7,821 nucleotides of DNA from a bacterium (GTDB taxonomy: Bacteria; ARS69), in contig JALGZO010000468.1 in NCBI GenBank assembly GCA_025774865.1, forward strand, positions 1 through 7,821, given 5' to 3'. The position numbers and the translations under genes were made by a program. Positions 1-7,662 of the stretch are shown piece by piece (within the stretch, counting starts at the first letter, position 1; each line of letters opens with the position of its first letter). Below the pieces are notes generated by a model. That model was not told the DNA's origin, ran no database searches, and saw only the letters and a list, made by a program, of their open reading frames with translations.

Positions 1-662
1 GCCGTCGCGACGACCGCGGCGAGTCCGGGGCGCCCCCGGCGGACCGCGAGCCAGGCGCCGGCCACCACGAACGCAGGGACGAGAAAGCCGAACTGCGGTT
101 TCGTCAGCGTGGCGAGCGCCGCGAGCGCGCCCGCGGCGACATTCCCGGCGCGCCCGCCCCGAAGGAGCATGACCGCTCCCGCGAGGCCGAGCGTCGTGCC
201 GAGCGTCTCGGGCAGAGCGAGCCGGCCGAGCTGGCTCCCGGCGAACGAGACCACCCAGAGCAGCGCGGCGATCCGCACCGCCCGCTCCGCGGCGGAATCA
301 CGCTCCCGCCGCCCCGCCGCGAGCAACAGCCACAGTCCCGCCGCCCCGACCGCGATCGACGCGAGACGCGCCGTCGCCAAGCTCGCCCCGCCGATCGAGA
401 ACACCGCGGTCATCCACAGCGTGAATACCGGGCTCACCCAGAAGAGGTCGAAGCCGGTGCCGAGCCGGGATCCGAATCGAACTGCCTCGCGGGCGTTCGC
501 CGTCCACCAGCCTTCGTCGAAGACCGAGAATGCGACGTCTTGGTAGTGCGAGACGAGCCGGGCGGGCGGATCCGCGGTGAGCGCGAAGAGGCGCAGCGCG
601 AGGAATCCGAGGACGAGCGTCACGGCGAACGGGCCGAACCGCATCGAGTCGATCCATCTCAT
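1..662 (-). CDS. GT39/ArnT-like membrane glycosyltransferase, 3' end beyond window
   Basis: Partial gene: 220 codons run without a stop from ATG 662 off the left edge. The N-terminal half looks like a GT-C fold enzyme of the PMT/ArnT (GT39) type, which transfers a sugar from a polyprenyl-phosphate donor on the periplasmic side of the inner membrane. Seen in the sequence: a first membrane segment at about residues 10-30; a loop containing an acidic pair in VFDEGWWTANARE (D49, E50), where GT39 proteins carry their catalytic Asp/Glu; hydrophobic segments at about 78-116, 131-141 and 155-168; GRLALPETLG at 146-155; and ATLTKPQFG at 184-192, like the lysine-proline motif common in this superfamily. 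The ATG overlaps the stop of the upstream GNAT gene (ATGA) and no Shine-Dalgarno sequence is evident, so coupled translation is likely. Family assignment is good; donor and acceptor are unknown. Confidence 0.8.
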   Translation of the reverse strand, partial: MRWIDSMRFGPFAVTLVLGFLALRLFALTADPPARLVSHYQDVAFSVFDEGWWTANAREAVRFGSRLGTGFDLFWVSPVFTLWMTAVFSIGGASLATARLASIAVGAAGLWLLLAAGRRERDSAAERAVRIAALLWVVSFAGSQLGRLALPETLGTTLGLAGAVMLLRGGRAGNVAAGALAALATLTKPQFGFLVPAFVVAGAWLAVRRGRPGLAAVVAT

Positions 663-1582
663 GAGAGGGTCCGCTCGAACGTCTCTCTCGCAAACCGGAT
701 ACCGCCGTGCGCTTCCTTGAACGCAGCGAGTCCTTCGTTGAGCTCGCCGCCGATCGACGACGTGCCGAGGTCGAGCTCCTTCAGGGACGCGGCGACCGCC
801 CACTCGAGCGCCCGCAGCATCACGAGGTTCGTCGCTCGCTGCCGACGGTGATCGCGGTTCTGGCAGAAGTAGAACGAGAGCCCGACGCGATCGTTGACGG
901 CGAGAAGCCAAGCCCCGGCGACCGGAACGCCGTCGTGGCGCGCGAGGAGAATCGTCTGCTTCGGACCGAGACGTCGAACGAGATCGGCGAGTTCTTCGAC
1001 GGTGTGAACCGGCTCCATTCCGAAGGCCGCCCGGTCGGCCACGAGCAGGTCGTGGAACGCGGTCGGGTCTTCCTCGACCCCGACGACCACGCCCTCCCGC
1101 TCCGCCTTCGCGACACCGCGGCGCGCGGACCCGGCGAGGAGATCACCGGGTCGCCGGGTGAGGGGCACGGTGTGGGAGATGTCGGACGCGATGCACTCGA
1201 AGCCGGACGCGAGCAGCGCGCCGCGGACGATGGCGTCGCCGCCCAACTCGTAGCGCGGCGGCGGCGGGGTCGTGCGGAGCCGTTCGTATCCTCGCGTGCG
1301 CGCTTCGTCGACGAGCGCCGCGACGGCTTCCGCCGCCCGCGCGGTGGCCACTCCCTCTCGCAGCACCGGCCCCCCGAACGACGCGCCTGCGCCCGACCAC
1401 CAGGTCGTGCCGTTCGCGGCCGCCGGCCAGAGGAGGATCGGGTGACCGTCGTCGCCCGCGATCTCCGCGTGATCCCACGCGAACCGGCCCTCCGGGTGAT
1501 AACCCAGGAAGTTCCTCGTATGGAAGAGCGTCCCGTTTCGACTCGAGGCGACGAACGCGTCCCAGGTTTCCATGTCCATCAT
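659..1582 (-). CDS. FemAB-like GNAT-superfamily acyltransferase
   Basis: 307-residue soluble protein with the two-lobed look of FemAB-type GNAT proteins, which transfer an acyl or aminoacyl group to an amine. The N-lobe begins with ETWDAFVASSRNGTLFHT (residues 5-22) and NFLGYHP (24-30), the typical opening of this group. A basic SARRGVAKAEREGVVV stretch (152-167) resembles the FemAB motif preceding the second lobe. The second lobe has ILLARHDGVPVAGAWLL (211-227), a beta-strand pair, and ends with LDLGTSS (270-276) and LAAFKEAHGG (285-294), matching the C-terminal FemAB signature. The start ATG at 1582 gives an ATGA overlap with the stop of the upstream membrane protein; nearby in-frame ATGs at 1579 and 1573 are alternatives. 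The frame stays open well upstream, but that stretch is the shadow of the neighbouring gene. The substrate is unknown; its position between two glycosyltransferase-like genes suggests a glycan or glycolipid amine. Confidence 0.85.
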   Translation of the reverse strand: MMDMETWDAFVASSRNGTLFHTRNFLGYHPEGRFAWDHAEIAGDDGHPILLWPAAANGTTWWSGAGASFGGPVLREGVATARAAEAVAALVDEARTRGYERLRTTPPPPRYELGGDAIVRGALLASGFECIASDISHTVPLTRRPGDLLAGSARRGVAKAEREGVVVGVEEDPTAFHDLLVADRAAFGMEPVHTVEELADLVRRLGPKQTILLARHDGVPVAGAWLLAVNDRVGLSFYFCQNRDHRRQRATNLVMLRALEWAVAASLKELDLGTSSIGGELNEGLAAFKEAHGGIRFARETFERTLS

Positions 1583-3141
1583 GGAGGACCACCCGCCATC
1601 TCGAACTCGACACCGGTCGGCAGCGTGGTCCGGAACTCGCGGGCGAGCGGCTCGGCGCGCGCCCGCGCCGCCTCGTCGAGAGCGAAGAAGGTCACCTTCG
1701 GCTGTGCAACCGTGACGAGCTTGCGCCCCAGGCGGAGCGTGCCGATTTCGCTCCAGCTCTCCGGGACATCCCCGAACCAGGGCGCGTAAATCATCGCGAG
1801 CTTCGCGTTCTTCGCGCGCGTCCGCTCGGCGACCCACGACCAGTCCCCGCCGGCGAGCCTGGCCTCGAGCGCCGGCCGCGAGCCGAGGCCCCACAGGTCG
1901 AGGACGTGTTCGTCGTTCCGGAAGGAGACCCAGCCGAGATCGTTCACGGCCACGGGCGCGCGCCAGTAACGCGTCGCGAAACGATGCATCTGGTACTGCT
2001 GCTCGTAGATGTTGTTGGAGCCGACCGGCAGAGTGTACAGCGCGTGCACGTAGGGGAATGACGCGGCGAGCGCGATCACGGCGAGCGCTCCGACGCCGGC
2101 GAGCCGCGGACTCCCCTCGACGAGCCGCACGATGCGGTGACGCTCGACGTGGACGAGCGTCAGGAGCACCGTGACCCAGATGTAGTTCTCGTAGCGGTGA
2201 TACCAGCCGAATCGCCCCACCAGGAAGTGGAGCGCCACGGCCGCCGTCCCCCACGCCGCCAGGGCCCGGTTCCCGGAGCGGCCGACGGCTCGGAATAGAA
2301 GAGCGGCGCCGGCGACCGCGAGCATCCCCCCCTGCCGATCCGCGAGTCCGACCGAGACGTTGCCGGCCAGCGAACGAAGTCGTCCTCCGGTCGCTACCGG
2401 ATGGGATTTCGCGATCACGGAGCTCGGAACGAGGCCGAGCTCCATCGAGCTCAGGTAGAGCGCGAACGCACCGAGGAAGGCCAGGAGCACCCCGCCGGTG
2501 ACCGCGGCGGTCCTGCCGTGTCCGCGGGCCATCAGGTAGACGAGAGCCGGCCCGCAGAGCGCGAGCAGTTCGAAACGGACGAGCGGGCCCGCGACGAGAA
2601 CCACGGGCAACCAGGGAAGCACCGTTCCGGATCGCGACTCCCGCATCAAGCCCCATACGACCGCCGTCGCCAGGAGGAGCTGCAGCGAATGCTCCATACC
2701 CGTGAACGCCATCCCGGTCAGATTGCCCGCGAGCACGAGCAGAAGAACGAGCCACGGGGCCGATTCCGCCACTCTGCGGTTCCCGACCGGATCGAGCGAG
2801 AATCGGATGACGCGCGCGAACAGTCCGATCGCGAGCAGGGAGACGAACAGGTTGACGATCAGCGGAACGTATTCGCCGACGGTCGCGCGGGCGAACGGCA
2901 CCAACAGAAAGGGCCACGCGATGCTCGAAGACGGCGCCGAGAACTCGTCGGCGTTCACCCCGTAGTGACCGCGGGTGAGGTTCTCGGCGACGGCGAGATG
3001 GATGTAGGGATCGTCCAGCGTGTAGAGGAAGCGTCCCTCGTTGAGCCGCAGGACGAGAAGCATCTCGACCAGACAGATCCCGAGGAAGATCGCGGCGGGG
3101 ATCCCGATCTCAGAACGCGGGAGCCGACCCGGCGGGTTCAT
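1579..3141 (-). CDS. Polytopic membrane protein, GT-C glycosyltransferase-like
   Basis: 520-residue integral membrane protein. The first membrane segment (about 12-33) is followed by a loop with an acidic pair in FLYTLDDPYIHLAVAENL (D43, D44), the position of the catalytic acids in GT-C enzymes. NLTRGHYGVN (54-63) and APSSSIAW (69-76) follow; all are typical of predicted polyprenyl-phosphate-sugar-dependent transferases. About ten more hydrophobic stretches follow, for example 92-111, 128-147, 174-201, 212-232, 270-285, 294-308, 320-332 and 348-366. GRFGWYHRYENYI (309-321) is a distinctive aromatic/basic loop. The last 150 or so residues look soluble and presumably periplasmic, with PVAVNDLGWVSF (396-407) and LDLWGLGSRPAL (414-425). 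ATG 3141 was chosen because it forms an ATGA overlap with the formyltransferase stop and sits directly before the first membrane segment; the open frame continuing upstream is a shadow. It could instead be a non-enzymatic or polymerase-like membrane protein. Donor and acceptor cannot be read from sequence. Confidence 0.8.
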   Translation of the reverse strand: MNPPGRLPRSEIGIPAAIFLGICLVEMLLVLRLNEGRFLYTLDDPYIHLAVAENLTRGHYGVNADEFSAPSSSIAWPFLLVPFARATVGEYVPLIVNLFVSLLAIGLFARVIRFSLDPVGNRRVAESAPWLVLLLVLAGNLTGMAFTGMEHSLQLLLATAVVWGLMRESRSGTVLPWLPVVLVAGPLVRFELLALCGPALVYLMARGHGRTAAVTGGVLLAFLGAFALYLSSMELGLVPSSVIAKSHPVATGGRLRSLAGNVSVGLADRQGGMLAVAGAALLFRAVGRSGNRALAAWGTAAVALHFLVGRFGWYHRYENYIWVTVLLTLVHVERHRIVRLVEGSPRLAGVGALAVIALAASFPYVHALYTLPVGSNNIYEQQYQMHRFATRYWRAPVAVNDLGWVSFRNDEHVLDLWGLGSRPALEARLAGGDWSWVAERTRAKNAKLAMIYAPWFGDVPESWSEIGTLRLGRKLVTVAQPKVTFFALDEAARARAEPLAREFRTTLPTGVEFEMAGGPP

Positions 3142-4088
3142 CCCGCGGGAGGGCCCGCCGGCGACCCTTCTCCGACGAGCGTGAACTTCCCGTGCATTCG
3201 GAGATCGCGCGCGACTCTCTCGAACGCGTCGGGGGATTCGTCGGCCTCGTAGGACGCGGACAGAATCTCCACGGTCCCGGTACCGGCGCCGACCACGAGG
3301 CGCCCGAGGTCCGGCGACAGAACGCCCGGCCCCGCGCCCAGCGCGCTCCTCGGGCGTACCCTCCAGACGATGACCCGCCTTCCGGCGAGCTCGGTGAATG
3401 CTCCCGGGTAGGGGCGCGTGAGCCCACGAACCCAATTGAAGACCGTGCGCGGGTCGAACGCCCAGTCGATGACGCCGTCCTCGGGACGACGTTGCGGACC
3501 GTAGCTCGCGCCCTCCCCGGTCTGGACGATCCGCGGGGCCGTACCCGCGGCCAGCCCGGGCAGGTACTCGGACAGGAGCCCCGACGCCGCCTCGACGAGC
3601 CGCCGCCGCACCGTGCCGGCATCGTCTTCGTCGGTCAGATCGAAGGGCCGTTGCCCGACGATGTCGCCGGTATCCGTTCCTTCGTCGAAGTAGAAGAGCG
3701 TGGGACCGGTGCGGGGCTCGTCGCGAATCAGCGCCCAATTCACGGGGGCGAAGCCGCGCAGCCGCGGCAGGAGCGACCCGTGGATCCCGAGACATCCCTT
3801 CGGCGGGATCGCCAAGACCTCAGGCGGCAGGATCCAGCGCCACCCGATGGCGAGCAGGATCTCGGGCTCCAGACTCTCGAGCTCGTCGACGGCATTCGCG
3901 GTCCGGAAGCGCCGGCCGCGGATCGTCGGCAGCGAGCGGTCCGCGACGATGCGCGTCACATCGTCGGCCCAGTCTTCGTGCTCACCCGGCGCGAACGCGC
4001 CGACCCCGACGATCTCGTGCCCCGCGTCGTGCACGACCTCCAGACAGCGGGCGCCGATCTCCTGGCTTCCGAGGAAAACGACCCTCAT
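3138..4088 (-). CDS. FMT/ArnA-type formyltransferase, probably acting on an amino sugar
   Basis: 316-residue protein of the N10-formyltetrahydrofolate-dependent formyltransferase family. The N-terminal Rossmann part starts MRVVFLGSQEIGARCLEVV. The core contains IHGSLLPRLRGFAPVNWALI (102-121) and YFDEGTDTGDIVGQ (133-146), where the catalytic His (H103) and Asp (D139) are expected. The usual Asn two residues before the His is replaced by Gly (G101). The C-terminal part carries RRPEDGVIDWAF (200-211) and RGLTRPYPGAF (221-231), the oligonucleotide-binding-like domain shared by methionyl-tRNA formyltransferase and ArnA. Housekeeping fmt normally sits beside def or rsmB. Placement between sugar-nucleotide enzymes and membrane glycosyltransferases argues for formylation of an amino sugar instead. 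The ATG overlaps the acetyltransferase stop (ATGA) and has a plausible GGAAGG ribosome binding site, the best one among the coupled genes. Family is secure; sugar specificity is inferred from context. Confidence 0.88.
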   Translation of the reverse strand: MRVVFLGSQEIGARCLEVVHDAGHEIVGVGAFAPGEHEDWADDVTRIVADRSLPTIRGRRFRTANAVDELESLEPEILLAIGWRWILPPEVLAIPPKGCLGIHGSLLPRLRGFAPVNWALIRDEPRTGPTLFYFDEGTDTGDIVGQRPFDLTDEDDAGTVRRRLVEAASGLLSEYLPGLAAGTAPRIVQTGEGASYGPQRRPEDGVIDWAFDPRTVFNWVRGLTRPYPGAFTELAGRRVIVWRVRPRSALGAGPGVLSPDLGRLVVGAGTGTVEILSASYEADESPDAFERVARDLRMHGKFTLVGEGSPAGPPAG

Positions 4089-4717
4089 TCGCCTTCCCCG
4101 GGACGGGCCAAGGGCGGAGAAGACCCCCGAGCGGCGTCCCACCGGCGCCAGGTCTCCTCGGGCACCCGGATCTCCTCCCCCGTCTCCAGCGATCGGGCGA
4201 CGACGACTCCCTCTTCGCGCCGCACCTCGGTCGCGAGCCTGCCTTTCACCGTCACGAATCCGACGATCCGCGCCGGGTTCCCCACCACGAGCGCGTGCGG
4301 CGGCACGTCCTTCGTCACGACCGCGCCGGCTCCGACCATGCAATACGTGCCGAGCTCCAGACCGCAGACAATTGTGACGTTCGCCCCCACCGAGGCGCCC
4401 TGGCGGACGAACGTGGGAACGACGTGCCATTCGGGGTCGAACGCACGCGGATAGAGGTCGTTCGTGAACGTCATGTGCGGCCCGAGGAAGACGTCATCCT
4501 CCACGGTGACGCCGTGGTAGATCGAAACGCCGTTCTGGATCTTCACGCGGTCGCCGATCACCACCGTATGATCGATGTAGACGCTCTTCCCCACGATGCA
4601 TCCCTTGCCCACGATGGCCCCCTCCCGGATCTGCACGTTGTTCCAGACCTTCGTGCCGGCGCCGAGGGCTGCGGAAGGATCCACGTCGGCGGTGGGGTGA
4701 ATGAAGACGTCGCTCAT
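4085..4717 (-). CDS. Left-handed beta-helix sugar N-acetyltransferase (WbpD/WlbB-like)
   Basis: 210-residue acyltransferase built of hexapeptide repeats. The repeats are visible from residue 5 onward (IHPTADVDPSAALGAGTKVW, 6-25) and again at 108-145 (ASVGANVTIVCGLELG, then VGAGAVVTKDVPPHALVVGN). TFTNDLYPRA (83-92) matches the conserved Asn-Asp-x-Tyr-Pro-Arg loop of WbpD/WlbB. Those enzymes acetylate the 3-amino group of a UDP-3-amino-2-acetamido-glucuronate with acetyl-CoA. GNPARIVGF (146-154) ends the helix, followed by a roughly 55-residue tail. The start at ATG 4717 opens with MSDVFIHPTADV, as expected for the family, and forms an ATGA overlap with the oxidoreductase stop. The immediately preceding Gfo/Idh/MocA gene fits the WbpB/WlbA step of the same pathway. 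Fold and acetyltransferase role are confident; the exact sugar is inferred. Confidence 0.9.
   Translation of the reverse strand: MSDVFIHPTADVDPSAALGAGTKVWNNVQIREGAIVGKGCIVGKSVYIDHTVVIGDRVKIQNGVSIYHGVTVEDDVFLGPHMTFTNDLYPRAFDPEWHVVPTFVRQGASVGANVTIVCGLELGTYCMVGAGAVVTKDVPPHALVVGNPARIVGFVTVKGRLATEVRREEGVVVARSLETGEEIRVPEETWRRWDAARGSSPPLARPGEGE
4092..4097 (-). promoter_or_regulatory. Ribosome binding site of the formyltransferase gene
   Basis: GGAAGG lies three bases before ATG 4088 on the minus strand. It supports that start over the open frame upstream. It also suggests this cistron can recruit ribosomes as well as receive them by coupling from the acetyltransferase gene. Confidence 0.5.
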
Positions 4718-5727
4718 GGGTGCGCCCGAATTCCGACGGTCGCTCCGCGCGACCGCATCGAAGCGTCCATCGCCTCCAGGACGGAGAGAACGCGGATTCC
4801 GTTCTGGGCGTCCGTACGCGGCTTGGTTCGATCCCGAACACACTCCAAGAAGTGCTGGGCCTCCACCTTCAGCGGCTCACCGATCGGTACCGGCGGAATC
4901 CGGATGTCGCCGATACGCTCGGCGATCGCGTCCTGGAAGCTCTCGTAGTGCTCCGTGGTATCGATGCCCTTGTCGATGATGCGAATCTTCTCGACGGGCT
5001 CCATGTCGTCGAACACCGCCATCCTCCGATTGCCCACGAGGGTGACGCGACGGACCTTGTGGGGGTCCAGCCAGCTGACGTGGACATTCGCCACCACCCC
5101 ACCTTCGAACGTGATCGTCGCGAACACCACGTCCGGAAGACCCGGACGAAGGTAGCTTCCTCCCTGCGCGGAAACGTGGAGCGGCACCGCGTCCGTGAGG
5201 AAGCGGATCGTCGAGACGTCGTGCGGCGCCAGGTCCCACAGAGCGCTCTCGGCCGCCCTGACCTTTCCGAGGTTCACCCGCGTCGTGTAGAGGTAGTAGA
5301 GATCGCCGAGCTCACCGCCTCGGACCATCTCACGAAACCGCATGAGACCGGGGTGGTATTCCAACAGGTGTCCCACCATGAGCACGCGCCGTTTCGCCTC
5401 GGCCTTCTCGGCGAGCGCGATCCCATCCTCGACGGAGAGCGCGAGTGGTTTCTCGACGAGGACGTCGATCCCGGCGTCGAGCAGCCGGCCGGCAATCTCG
5501 AAGTGAGTCGAAGCCGGCGTCGCGACGACGACCGCATCCACCCCGGCGTCCAAGAGCCCGTCGAGCCCGCGGAACAGATCGATGCCGGGATACATCGAGC
5601 CGGCGGCCTGCAGTGCTTCCGCCCGCGCATCGACGATGCCGATGACCTCGCAGTCGGGCAGCCCCCTCAGGACCCGGACGAAGTTCGGGCCCCAGTAACC
5701 GAATCCGATGACACCGACGCGGATCAA
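4714..5727 (-). CDS. Gfo/Idh/MocA-family sugar-nucleotide oxidoreductase (WbpB/WlbA-like)
   Basis: 337-residue NAD(P)-dependent dehydrogenase, close to the usual family length. The N-terminal Rossmann fold starts at once with VGVIGFGYWGPN (4-15, GxGxxG-type at 8-13), then ATPASTHFEIA (69-79) and VEKPLALS (91-98) with the conserved EKP lysine K93. In the C-terminal domain, WDLAPHDVST (164-173) supplies the likely catalytic His (H169) and Asp (D170). In the WbpB/WlbA branch the enzyme oxidises C3 of a UDP-N-acetylglucosaminuronate to a ketone that is then transaminated and acetylated; the adjacent WbpD-like gene supports that role. The start codon is TTG at 5727. The frame opens only seven codons upstream with no ATG, GTG or other TTG, and the Rossmann strand begins at residue 2. 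A promoter lies about 50 bases upstream. First gene of the six-gene operon. The aminotransferase of the pathway is not in the window. Other sugar substrates remain possible. Confidence 0.88.
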   Translation of the reverse strand: MIRVGVIGFGYWGPNFVRVLRGLPDCEVIGIVDARAEALQAAGSMYPGIDLFRGLDGLLDAGVDAVVVATPASTHFEIAGRLLDAGIDVLVEKPLALSVEDGIALAEKAEAKRRVLMVGHLLEYHPGLMRFREMVRGGELGDLYYLYTTRVNLGKVRAAESALWDLAPHDVSTIRFLTDAVPLHVSAQGGSYLRPGLPDVVFATITFEGGVVANVHVSWLDPHKVRRVTLVGNRRMAVFDDMEPVEKIRIIDKGIDTTEHYESFQDAIAERIGDIRIPPVPIGEPLKVEAQHFLECVRDRTKPRTDAQNGIRVLSVLEAMDASMRSRGATVGIRAHP

Positions 5728-5803: not shown

Positions 5804-5807
5804 TCAA
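5778..5807 (-). promoter_or_regulatory. Sigma70-like promoter for the glycan operon
   Basis: On the minus strand a perfect -35 box TTGACA (5807-5802) is followed after 18 bases by TACGAT (5783-5778), a four-of-six match to the -10 box. Transcription would begin near 5771 and leave a leader of about 44 bases before the TTG start at 5727. The -35 box contains the stop codon of the upstream barrel gene (TGA, 5806-5804), so the promoter is embedded in the end of that gene. Such an AT-containing, well-spaced pair stands out in this GC-rich window. Not tested. Confidence 0.55.
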
Positions 5808-6619
5808 CGTCGGATACCCGTCCGCGGACCGCCGGGCCCCCGACGCCGGCTCCCGGCCCAATCCCAGACCGCGAACTCCCGCCGGGCGCCTTCGTTGGGG
5901 TCACGAACGCCCCCCCCGACGAAGTGGGCCCCGAAGACTACCCCCGCGGTCAGACTCCAGTTGCCGTCGATGTCGGCCGCACCCCCGAAACGGAGAGGCC
6001 GCGTCCGGTCGAAAGCGAGCCCGAACCAGTGCTCCCGGTCACCGGCCTCGAACCGCGCGTCGTACGTGACGTGGCCGAGAAAAGCCGCCGGACGCCACGC
6101 CGCGCCCAGTTGCCACGTTTGACGCGACTTGACCCCCTGGGTCTCGGGCTCGAACAGGTGAGTGCCGGCCGCCGCCAGTCGCCATTCTCGGCCCACCGGC
6201 AGCACGGCCCCCACGCCGCCATCCAGCGACGAGTCTTCTCCGCCGCGCCACTCGATTTCGACGCCGAACATGAGACGCGCCACCGGGAATCTCTTCCCCA
6301 CGGCGAAAGTCCAATCAGGGACCCCCGCCTCGTCCGCGAAGTTCCACTGGAGGCCGTAGGCGGCCAAGGGCATGGCCGCCACCACGCTCAGGCGTCGCAC
6401 GTCGCCGATCCGGAGTTGATCCTCTTCGTACCAGACGACGTCCGCGGCCGCGGTCGGCGCGTTGTTCGCGCCGATCGCGGCCGGGTTCACCCACAGCGCA
6501 CGCGCGCCCTCCTCCCCCGCCACGGGCCGGAAACCGCCGAGGAAGGAATGCGCCGCCTCGGCCTCGGTCGCGGCGGCGACGATCCCGGCGATCACGAAGA
6601 TCCATCGACCCGTTCTCAT
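5804..6619 (-). CDS. Small outer-membrane beta-barrel protein, PorV/FadL-like start
   Basis: 271-residue predicted exported protein. Residues 1-22 form a signal peptide (basic MRTGR, hydrophobic core, AEA before the cleavage site). The mature part begins SFLGGFRPVAGEEGARALWV (25-44) and NPAAIG (45-50), resembling the opening of FadL/PorV-like barrels, where a GARA...NPAGL-type motif is typical. From about 58 to 235 the chain alternates short polar turns with amphipathic stretches, for example LSVVAAMPLAAYGLQWNF (77-94), LMFGVEIEWRGG (116-127) and WRLAAAGTHLF (146-156), as expected of beta strands. The last 30 or so residues are Arg/Gly-rich and do not end on an aromatic residue, which is unusual for a barrel. 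A run of eight G lies just before this tail (see findings). The ATG overlaps the speB stop (ATGA). No specific function is recognised. Confidence 0.7.
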   Translation of the reverse strand: MRTGRWIFVIAGIVAAATEAEAAHSFLGGFRPVAGEEGARALWVNPAAIGANNAPTAAADVVWYEEDQLRIGDVRRLSVVAAMPLAAYGLQWNFADEAGVPDWTFAVGKRFPVARLMFGVEIEWRGGEDSSLDGGVGAVLPVGREWRLAAAGTHLFEPETQGVKSRQTWQLGAAWRPAAFLGHVTYDARFEAGDREHWFGLAFDRTRPLRFGGAADIDGNWSLTAGVVFGAHFVGGGVRDPNEGARREFAVWDWAGSRRRGPGGPRTGIRR

Positions 6620-7494
6620 CCGTGTTCCATCCCGTGGTAGGTGATCATCTTGGCGGTGAGTCGTGCCGCCGCGAAATCGGAGACCTGGGAACCTGCCCGC
6701 GGCGCGAGCTCGACGAGGTCCATCCCGCGCACGCGTCGCTGCGCGAACACCTCACGAAGAAGATCGAGCACGTCCCACCAGTCGAGCCCTCCCGGTTCCG
6801 GGGTCCCCGTCGCGGGAACGATGGAAGGATCCAGGCCGTCGACGTCCACGGTCACGTAGACGTCCGCGCCGAGCTTCGACACGATCTCGGCCGGCGTCAC
6901 CCGTGAGGCCGTGACATCCCGCGCCGAGACGAGCGTGAGCTCATCCGCTCCTTTCGCGAATGCTGCTTCCGCCGCCGACAGGCTACGGAGGCCGACGACG
7001 GTGAACGGTCCCCCTTCGAAGACACGACGCCCCACGCACGCGTGAGAGTAGTCGTCTCCCTCGTAACGGTCGCGGAGATCGGCATGAGCATCGATCGAAA
7101 GCACGTGCGTGTCCGGGTGAGCACCGCGGACGGCCTGCACCGCCCCGAGCGTCACGGAGTGCTCACCTCCTACCACGAACGGAACCCTGCCGTCCGCGAC
7201 TACCGGAGCGACCGCCGCCCGCACGCGCTCCGCGTACCCACGGGCATCGACGTCTTCTGCCGAGATTTCGGAGCCGAGCGCGAAGGAGAGCCCCTCCAGC
7301 TCGACGCCCGTCTCGTCGTCGAAGGTCTCCACCTGGAGGGACGCTTCGAGGATCGCCCGTGGGCCCTCCGCTTGCCCGCGCCCGTACGACGCGGTCCCGT
7401 CGAACGGCGCCGGCAGGAGCACGACCCGGGCTTCTTCCACCCGTCCCCCCGACCGGGACGACACCCCGGCGAAGTTGCGTATTGGCTCCGGCAA
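6616..7494 (-). CDS. speB: Agmatinase-family ureohydrolase (agmatine to putrescine and urea)
   Basis: 292-residue arginase/agmatinase/formiminoglutamase-family enzyme, the normal length for SpeB. All six binuclear manganese ligands can be placed: His in VVGGEHSVTLG (H112), Asp-His-Asp in SIDAHADLRD (D135, H137, D139) and Asp-Asp in VTVDVDGLDPS (D217, D219). Also family-typical are PAPFDGTASYGRGQAEGPRA (28-47), YSHACVGRR (149-157), PATGTPEPGGL (227-237) and MDLVELAP (258-265, with E262). Family knowledge gives hydrolysis of agmatine to putrescine plus urea in the cytosol; a related guanidino substrate is possible. The TTG start at 7494 was chosen because GGAGGAG sits three bases upstream and the N-terminus then matches family length. 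The frame remains open to a GTG at 7641, but that start has no ribosome site and would span the likely promoter region. No speA or other polyamine gene is visible. Its stop overlaps the barrel-gene start. Confidence 0.88.
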   Translation of the reverse strand: MPEPIRNFAGVSSRSGGRVEEARVVLLPAPFDGTASYGRGQAEGPRAILEASLQVETFDDETGVELEGLSFALGSEISAEDVDARGYAERVRAAVAPVVADGRVPFVVGGEHSVTLGAVQAVRGAHPDTHVLSIDAHADLRDRYEGDDYSHACVGRRVFEGGPFTVVGLRSLSAAEAAFAKGADELTLVSARDVTASRVTPAEIVSKLGADVYVTVDVDGLDPSIVPATGTPEPGGLDWWDVLDLLREVFAQRRVRGMDLVELAPRAGSQVSDFAAARLTAKMITYHGMEHG

Positions 7495-7497
7495 GAT

Positions 7498-7504
7498 CTC
7501 CTCC
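7498..7504 (-). promoter_or_regulatory. Ribosome binding site deciding the speB start
   Basis: GGAGGAG on the minus strand, three bases before the TTG at 7494 (GGAGG with a five-base spacer). It is the only well-spaced Shine-Dalgarno sequence for an in-frame start of this gene. Confidence 0.6.
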
Positions 7505-7566
7505 GGCGGATACGGGTCGCGGGCATCATCCCCGAACGAACCGGACCTGCCAACCCCGAGCCACTG

Positions 7567-7573
7567 CCTCCTT
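7567..7573 (-). promoter_or_regulatory. Orphan AAGGAGG Shine-Dalgarno-like sequence upstream of speB
   Basis: A near-perfect anti-16S match AAGGAGG lies about 70 bases before the chosen speB start. No start codon in the speB frame lies within the usual spacing. The nearest GTG, two bases on, opens a 12-codon frame that ends in TGA. It may serve a short leader peptide, or be chance. Confidence 0.3.
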
Positions 7574-7588
7574 GATACACTGTTACGG

Positions 7589-7602
7589 CGATCGAACGAT
7601 CG
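7589..7602. repeat. Palindromic repeat CGATCG-AA-CGATCG, possible operator
   Basis: Two copies of the self-complementary hexamer CGATCG separated by AA, so the element is both a direct and an inverted repeat. It lies between two divergent genes and just upstream of a -10-like box, a typical place for a repressor site. CGATCG is common in GC-rich DNA, so chance is possible. Confidence 0.35.
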
Positions 7603-7607
7603 TCTCG

Positions 7608-7613
7608 TATACT
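7608..7613 (+). promoter_or_regulatory. Candidate -10 box for the beta-helix gene
   Basis: TATACT, five of six to the consensus, 50 bases before ATG 7663. Its core GTATAC is palindromic, so it could also be read on the other strand. No good -35 box is found at 16-19 bases; TTGATA at 7572 is 30 bases away. Weak call. Confidence 0.3.
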
Positions 7614-7662
7614 CGCTCCTCGCGATGGACACGAGTCCCACGCCAAACCGGATCTCGCCGGC

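Follow-up and report, generated by a model that had tools for sequence, protein, structure and literature searches.

Several described systems share parts of the gene set that we analysed on contig JALGZO010000468.1 of a metagenome-assembled bacterial genome (GCA_025774865.1; 4.7 Mb, 785 contigs, 92.7% complete, 8.3% contamination). The window is this entire contig (C472, 7821 bases), and six minus-strand open reading frames reported in an earlier note on this DNA were confirmed in it, in the order OX, NAT, FMT, GT1, FEM and GT2 (Table 1). In the Wlb/Wbp pathway (WlbA, WlbC and WlbB, equivalent to WbpB, WbpE and WbpD), which leads to UDP-2,3-diacetamido-2,3-dideoxy-uronic acid, a Gfo/Idh/MocA dehydrogenase adjoins a WlbB-type hexapeptide N-acetyltransferase, as OX adjoins NAT. 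The Arn pathway for 4-amino-4-deoxy-L-arabinose shares an ArnB-like aminotransferase, a formyltransferase resembling the N-terminal part of ArnA, and GT-C-like membrane proteins. The N-formyltransferases of O-antigens and nonulosonic acids (VioF, QdtF, WlaRD, PseJ and WbkC) share with FMT the Formyl_trans_N fold and a sugar locus with an aminotransferase and a short-chain dehydrogenase/reductase (SDR). Finally, the hydrolase domain of 10-formyl-tetrahydrofolate dehydrogenase (FDH) resembles FMT in keeping His and Asp, in lacking the catalytic Asn, and in its DxGxDTGD motif.

The locus nevertheless departs from each of these systems. In contrast with Wlb/Wbp, the module has its aminotransferase in a facing operon, and this enzyme resembles ArnB/PseC rather than WbpE; FMT and an SDR are additional, as is a carbamoyltransferase in the relatives. 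Unlike Arn, it has no called ArnC or ArnD, its FMT is without the catalytic Asn, and OX and NAT are extra. The VioF group is more distant in sequence; FMT retains a C-terminal domain like that of Fmt/ArnA, and its Asn is replaced by Gly. FDH carries Ile at the Asn site and belongs to a fused dehydrogenase. We consider it rather likely that the locus makes up half of a module whose product is a nucleotide-activated, N-acylated amino sugar destined for a surface glycan. Judged from its sequence, the most unusual feature of the locus is a conserved, predicted formyltransferase-fold enzyme without the catalytic Asn, which the earlier note did not mention.

A paper reporting crystal structures describes this Asn as crucial for catalysis in the enzymes there called FMT, ArnA and GART, and places Ile at the same position in FDH (PMC4388273). 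In the FMT of the window the Asn-His-Asp set of Fmt, ArnA and PurN is incomplete, the residues being Gly101, His103 and Asp139. Gly occupies the catalytic-Asn position (GIHGSLLP) in four of four orthologs, with His103 and Asp139 retained, and the HxSLLPxxxG motif is present in FMT as HGSLLPRLRG. The best matches outside the family have Asn in nearly all cases, and Gly was seen in two genomes (G059 and G229). In a formyltransferase tree of 59 rows, for which the bootstrap was not fully settled, the Gly-type (GxH) proteins form one small clade (support 98/93), and this clade groups with the formyltransferases of Arn-like operons (97/89), with canonical Fmt apart. A literature search, reaching few subscription journals, found no description of GxH formyltransferases. 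An AlphaFold model of FMT built from three sequences had a mean confidence (pLDDT) of 56, was weakest in the active-site half, and was too poor for a fold search, so that it was left unused.

FMT is closest to ArnA (8e-44) but falls short of the curated models. It scores 135 bits against TIGR00460 (Fmt; cut-off 201.5), 212 bits against PRK06988 (cut-off 316) and 181 bits against the ArnA model (cut-off 777). The same genome encodes a canonical Fmt on contig C511, which groups with other Fmts in the tree, and a PurN-like match on contig C258, making FMT a third member that is distinct from the tRNA formyltransferase of the genome. A role as the initiator-tRNA enzyme was rejected on the basis of this separate Fmt, the placement of FMT in another clade, and its score below the TIGR00460 cut-off. 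The earlier note had expected a formyltransferase other than the tRNA enzyme, and would have given up its proposal had FMT acted only on initiator tRNA; the presence of a separate Fmt in the genome supports that expectation. The canonical Fmt is itself encoded by a single frame of 764 aa (L057:127-2421), much longer than Fmt and perhaps a fusion.

Gene order was compared with three genomes of the same family, each representing another genus (G001, G002 and G003). The order OX-NAT-FMT is kept in all three, at 59-80% identity (72-80% for OX, which is cut by a contig end in G001, and 71-79% for NAT). Tail to tail with these genes, on the opposite strand, the three relatives carry an extended SDR, a DegT-family aminotransferase, a NodU-type carbamoyltransferase and a FemAB-like GNAT. 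In the relatives OX-NAT-FMT is not continued by GT1, FEM and GT2. The earlier note had treated all six genes as a conserved block, and this does not hold: only OX-NAT-FMT recurs, with FEM nearby but inverted. Its proposal would equally have failed had the order been conserved nowhere, and here the sharing of OX-NAT-FMT with three other genera speaks in its favour. On sequence comparison, GT1 and GT2 appear to be local additions outside the conserved module. FEM is 36-38% identical to the inverted FemAB-like neighbour in relatives and is the sole match to the FEM-family alignment in its genome, and because of this FEM and that neighbour are probably one gene in opposite orientations.

The family matches of OX and NAT are in keeping with amino-sugar synthesis. 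The best NCBIfam model for OX is UDP-GlcNAc 3-dehydrogenase, at 172 bits and below the cut-off of 450. The nearest solved structures to NAT are a lipopolysaccharide-biosynthesis acetyltransferase, 3mqg (1.6e-47), which we take to be of the WlbB type, and a WxcM-like protein. At the family level, profile and structure matches thus place the pairing of a WlbA-type dehydrogenase with a WlbB-type N-acetyltransferase in the window, and they bear out the WlbA-like oxidation and WlbB-like N-acetylation of an amino-sugar pathway proposed earlier. As in the Wlb/Wbp pathway, the pair suggests a 3-amino sugar. The module aminotransferase is nearest to ArnB (7e-76; 259 bits) rather than WbpE (144 bits), and its ArnB/PseC-like character suggests a 4-amino sugar.

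No aminotransferase is encoded in the window, and the earlier note therefore missed this enzyme. The ortholog of the module aminotransferase sits elsewhere in the genome, on contig C150, where it immediately follows that of the SDR; both lie at the contig end and are 63% (aminotransferase) and 74% (SDR) identical to their counterparts in G002. The end of a minus-strand frame that runs off the contig lies 31 nucleotides past the aminotransferase and may encode the C-terminal part of GT2. Because the orientation of C150 and the gene order in relatives fit, C150 probably adjoins the window on its left, the gap falling within GT2. A second DegT-family aminotransferase lies on contig C591, beside an OX paralogue. 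For the carbamoyltransferase, this genome offers nothing closer than distant paralogues, the best at 30% across half the length. The idea of a complete unit that makes, transfers and decorates a sugar is not supported, since the aminotransferase is on C150, GT1 and GT2 lie outside the module, and FMT is missing its Asn.

If the locus is one half of such a nucleotide-sugar module, the extended SDR and OX would oxidize a nucleotide sugar to a keto-sugar, on which the DegT-family aminotransferase would install an amino group. NAT would N-acetylate and FMT formylate amino groups, which may both sit on a single diamino sugar or be divided between two sugars, and in relatives the NodU-type enzyme would probably add an O-carbamoyl group. 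The activated sugar may then pass to a polyprenyl carrier, made elsewhere, and on to the GT-C-like GT1 and GT2, and FEM may attach a further acyl or aminoacyl group. Every substrate and each acyl position in this scheme is putative, as are the transferase activity of FMT and the adjacency of C150.

Several points weigh against this scheme. OX, NAT, FMT and the aminotransferase all fall below the curated cut-offs of specific NCBIfam equivalogs, and because none of these is reached no substrate can be named. N-formylation cannot be assumed, because FMT is without the Asn that is common to characterized formyltransferases and that PMC4388273 calls crucial. The suggestions of a 3-amino sugar, from OX and NAT, and of a 4-amino sugar, from the aminotransferase, cannot yet be reconciled within a single known pathway. 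The roles of GT1 and GT2 as transferases for this sugar are putative. The junction between C150 and C472 is unsequenced and a comparison of the contig ends gave no overlap; furthermore, a homologue spanning both halves of GT2 was sought in the fetched loci and none was found, so that the two fragments are not tied together. In its most specific form, the proposal would be an undescribed nucleotide sugar with acetamido and formamido groups, made by formyl transfer without the catalytic Asn and additionally O-carbamoylated in relatives; we regard this full version as unlikely.

A different account, which we also hold to be rather unlikely, is that FMT is no longer a formyltransferase and hydrolyses 10-formyl-tetrahydrofolate like the FDH domain, or uses another donor or acceptor. 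It draws on Gly101 at the Asn site in the four orthologs and the whole clade, on the catalytic stretch of one GxH member (L040), whose best match in the PDB is 10-formyl-tetrahydrofolate dehydrogenase, and on mutation of FDH Ile104 to Asn, after which hydrolase activity falls to <10% (PMC4388273). However, the FDH residue is Ile and not Gly, and FMT retains His103, Asp139 and the SLLP motif. Moreover, the two GxH genes found outside the family (L040:473-4036 on G059:C104 and L129:2081-9090 on G229:C38) adjoin a PIG-L-type deacetylase in sugar loci, with a NeuB-like synthase near. From this context, the enzymes may put an acyl group back on an amine freed in a nonulosonic acid, which would make them transferases. 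L040 and L129 come from unrelated genomes and may represent a deacetylate-then-formylate pair for nonulosonic acids. Another locus, L133:3980-12544 (G367:C36), seems from sequence starts only to encode an SDR, a DegT aminotransferase, a deacetylase-like protein, an Asn-type formyltransferase and a FemAB-like protein.

The locus might instead encode an Arn-like pathway, in which the SDR would produce a 4-keto pentose or hexose, the ArnB-like enzyme would aminate C4, FMT would formylate the product and GT2 would act like ArnT, leaving OX and NAT for a separate sugar. The closeness of the aminotransferase to ArnB and of FMT to ArnA, and the position of the FMT clade as sister to the Arn-type formyltransferases, are consistent with this. 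Against it, operons that look truly Arn-like (L037, L127, L130 and L132, with gene names assigned by sequence starts and order) have ArnC-like GT2-family and ArnD-like deacetylase genes and an Asn-type formyltransferase, whereas no ArnC- or ArnD-like gene was called in the module in any of the four genomes. The SDR is nearer to epimerase/LegB-type enzymes than to ArnA, and the PRK06988 cut-off that FMT fails is passed by the Arn-type formyltransferase of L127 (381 bits). Identity as an Arn operon was rejected, since neither ArnC nor ArnD was called and FMT is under a cut-off that an Arn-type formyltransferase passes; an Arn-like pathway is quite improbable. Weakest of all, and very doubtful, is the view that chance has brought together, in a variable glycan island, several unrelated sugar genes that share no product. 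In its favour, GT1 and GT2 are unconserved at the locus, the orientation of FEM is reversed, and nothing close to the carbamoyltransferase occurs in the genome. Against it, the OX-NAT-FMT order and the facing SDR-aminotransferase pair persist at high identity in three further genera, and the NAT and FMT orthologs are jointly missing from a fourth comparison genome (G004), which is only 82% complete.

Table 1. Features of the window discussed in the text.
Feature	Position	Strand	Details
OX, Gfo/Idh/MocA sugar dehydrogenase	4714..5727	-	337 aa, TTG start; GFO_IDH_MocA 1.9e-25
NAT, hexapeptide-repeat N-acetyltransferase	4085..4717	-	210 aa; Hexapep 3e-19
FMT, formyltransferase-fold protein, GxH clade	3138..4088	-	316 aa; Formyl_trans_N 7.5e-25 and Formyl_trans_C 1.8e-13
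FMT codons 101-103, Gly-Ile-His	3780..3788	-	From alignments; Gly replaces catalytic Asn; followed by HGSLLPxxRG
FMT codon 139, Asp	3672..3674	-	From alignments; conserved catalytic aspartate, motif DEGTDTGD
GT1, multi-spanning membrane protein of an unnamed family, DDxYIH loop	1579..3141	-	520 aa; putative GT-C-like glycosyltransferase
GT1 residues 43-48, DDPYIH	2998..3015	-	All 9 homologues share D43, D44, I47 and H48
FEM, FemAB/GNAT-like protein	659..1582	-	307 aa; Acetyltransf_6 6.8e-10
GT2, PMT_2-type membrane protein, N-terminal 220 aa	3..662	-	PMT_2 1.3e-6; gene cut by contig end

The six genes form an operon-like run, with a 4-nucleotide overlap at each of the five successive junctions from OX through GT2. 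Pfam matches agree with the family assignments first made for OX, NAT, FMT, FEM and GT2, although the PMT_2 match of GT2 is weak and barely above the cut-off; the GT-C label of GT1 is unproven. GT1 matched no Pfam or NCBIfam model, and its label is based on hydrophobic (membrane) segments and the conserved DDxYIH loop motif. Its family is present in 12 of 241 genomes, with a second copy within the genome of the window, and a search of G001-G004 gave no ortholog. The family appears widespread, unnamed and often outside glycan loci, for example at L094:144-1703, with homologues in L090-L093, L097 and L098. An AlphaFold model of GT1 made with no alignment (pLDDT 44) was of too low quality to support a fold search and went unused. 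FEM was also considered as an exosortase-linked (XrtA/PEP-CTERM) FemAB protein, and this was rejected on its score of 34 bits against 260 for TIGR03019 and the lack of an exosortase in the genome.

Upstream of OX, after a gap of 76 nucleotides, come a 271-aa protein (5804-6619) and an agmatinase (6616-7641). Both were rejected as members of the module, given this gap and because they are not kept in G003. The 271-aa protein likely has a signal peptide and belongs to no family; a 36% identical homologue occupies the same place in G002. Polyamine genes lie on both sides of the module, as agmatinase and as MFS/spermidine synthase (L051:7561-9645), in G002 too; in the genome of the window this flanking holds only if C150 is the neighbour.

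For uncultured bacteria, the module delimits a set of genes, amenable to testing, behind a surface sugar that is as yet unknown. If GxH formyltransferases do transfer formyl groups, the Asn-His-Asp requirement of a large enzyme family would need revision. Otherwise, glycan loci that carry these proteins would be wrongly annotated as making N-formyl sugars.

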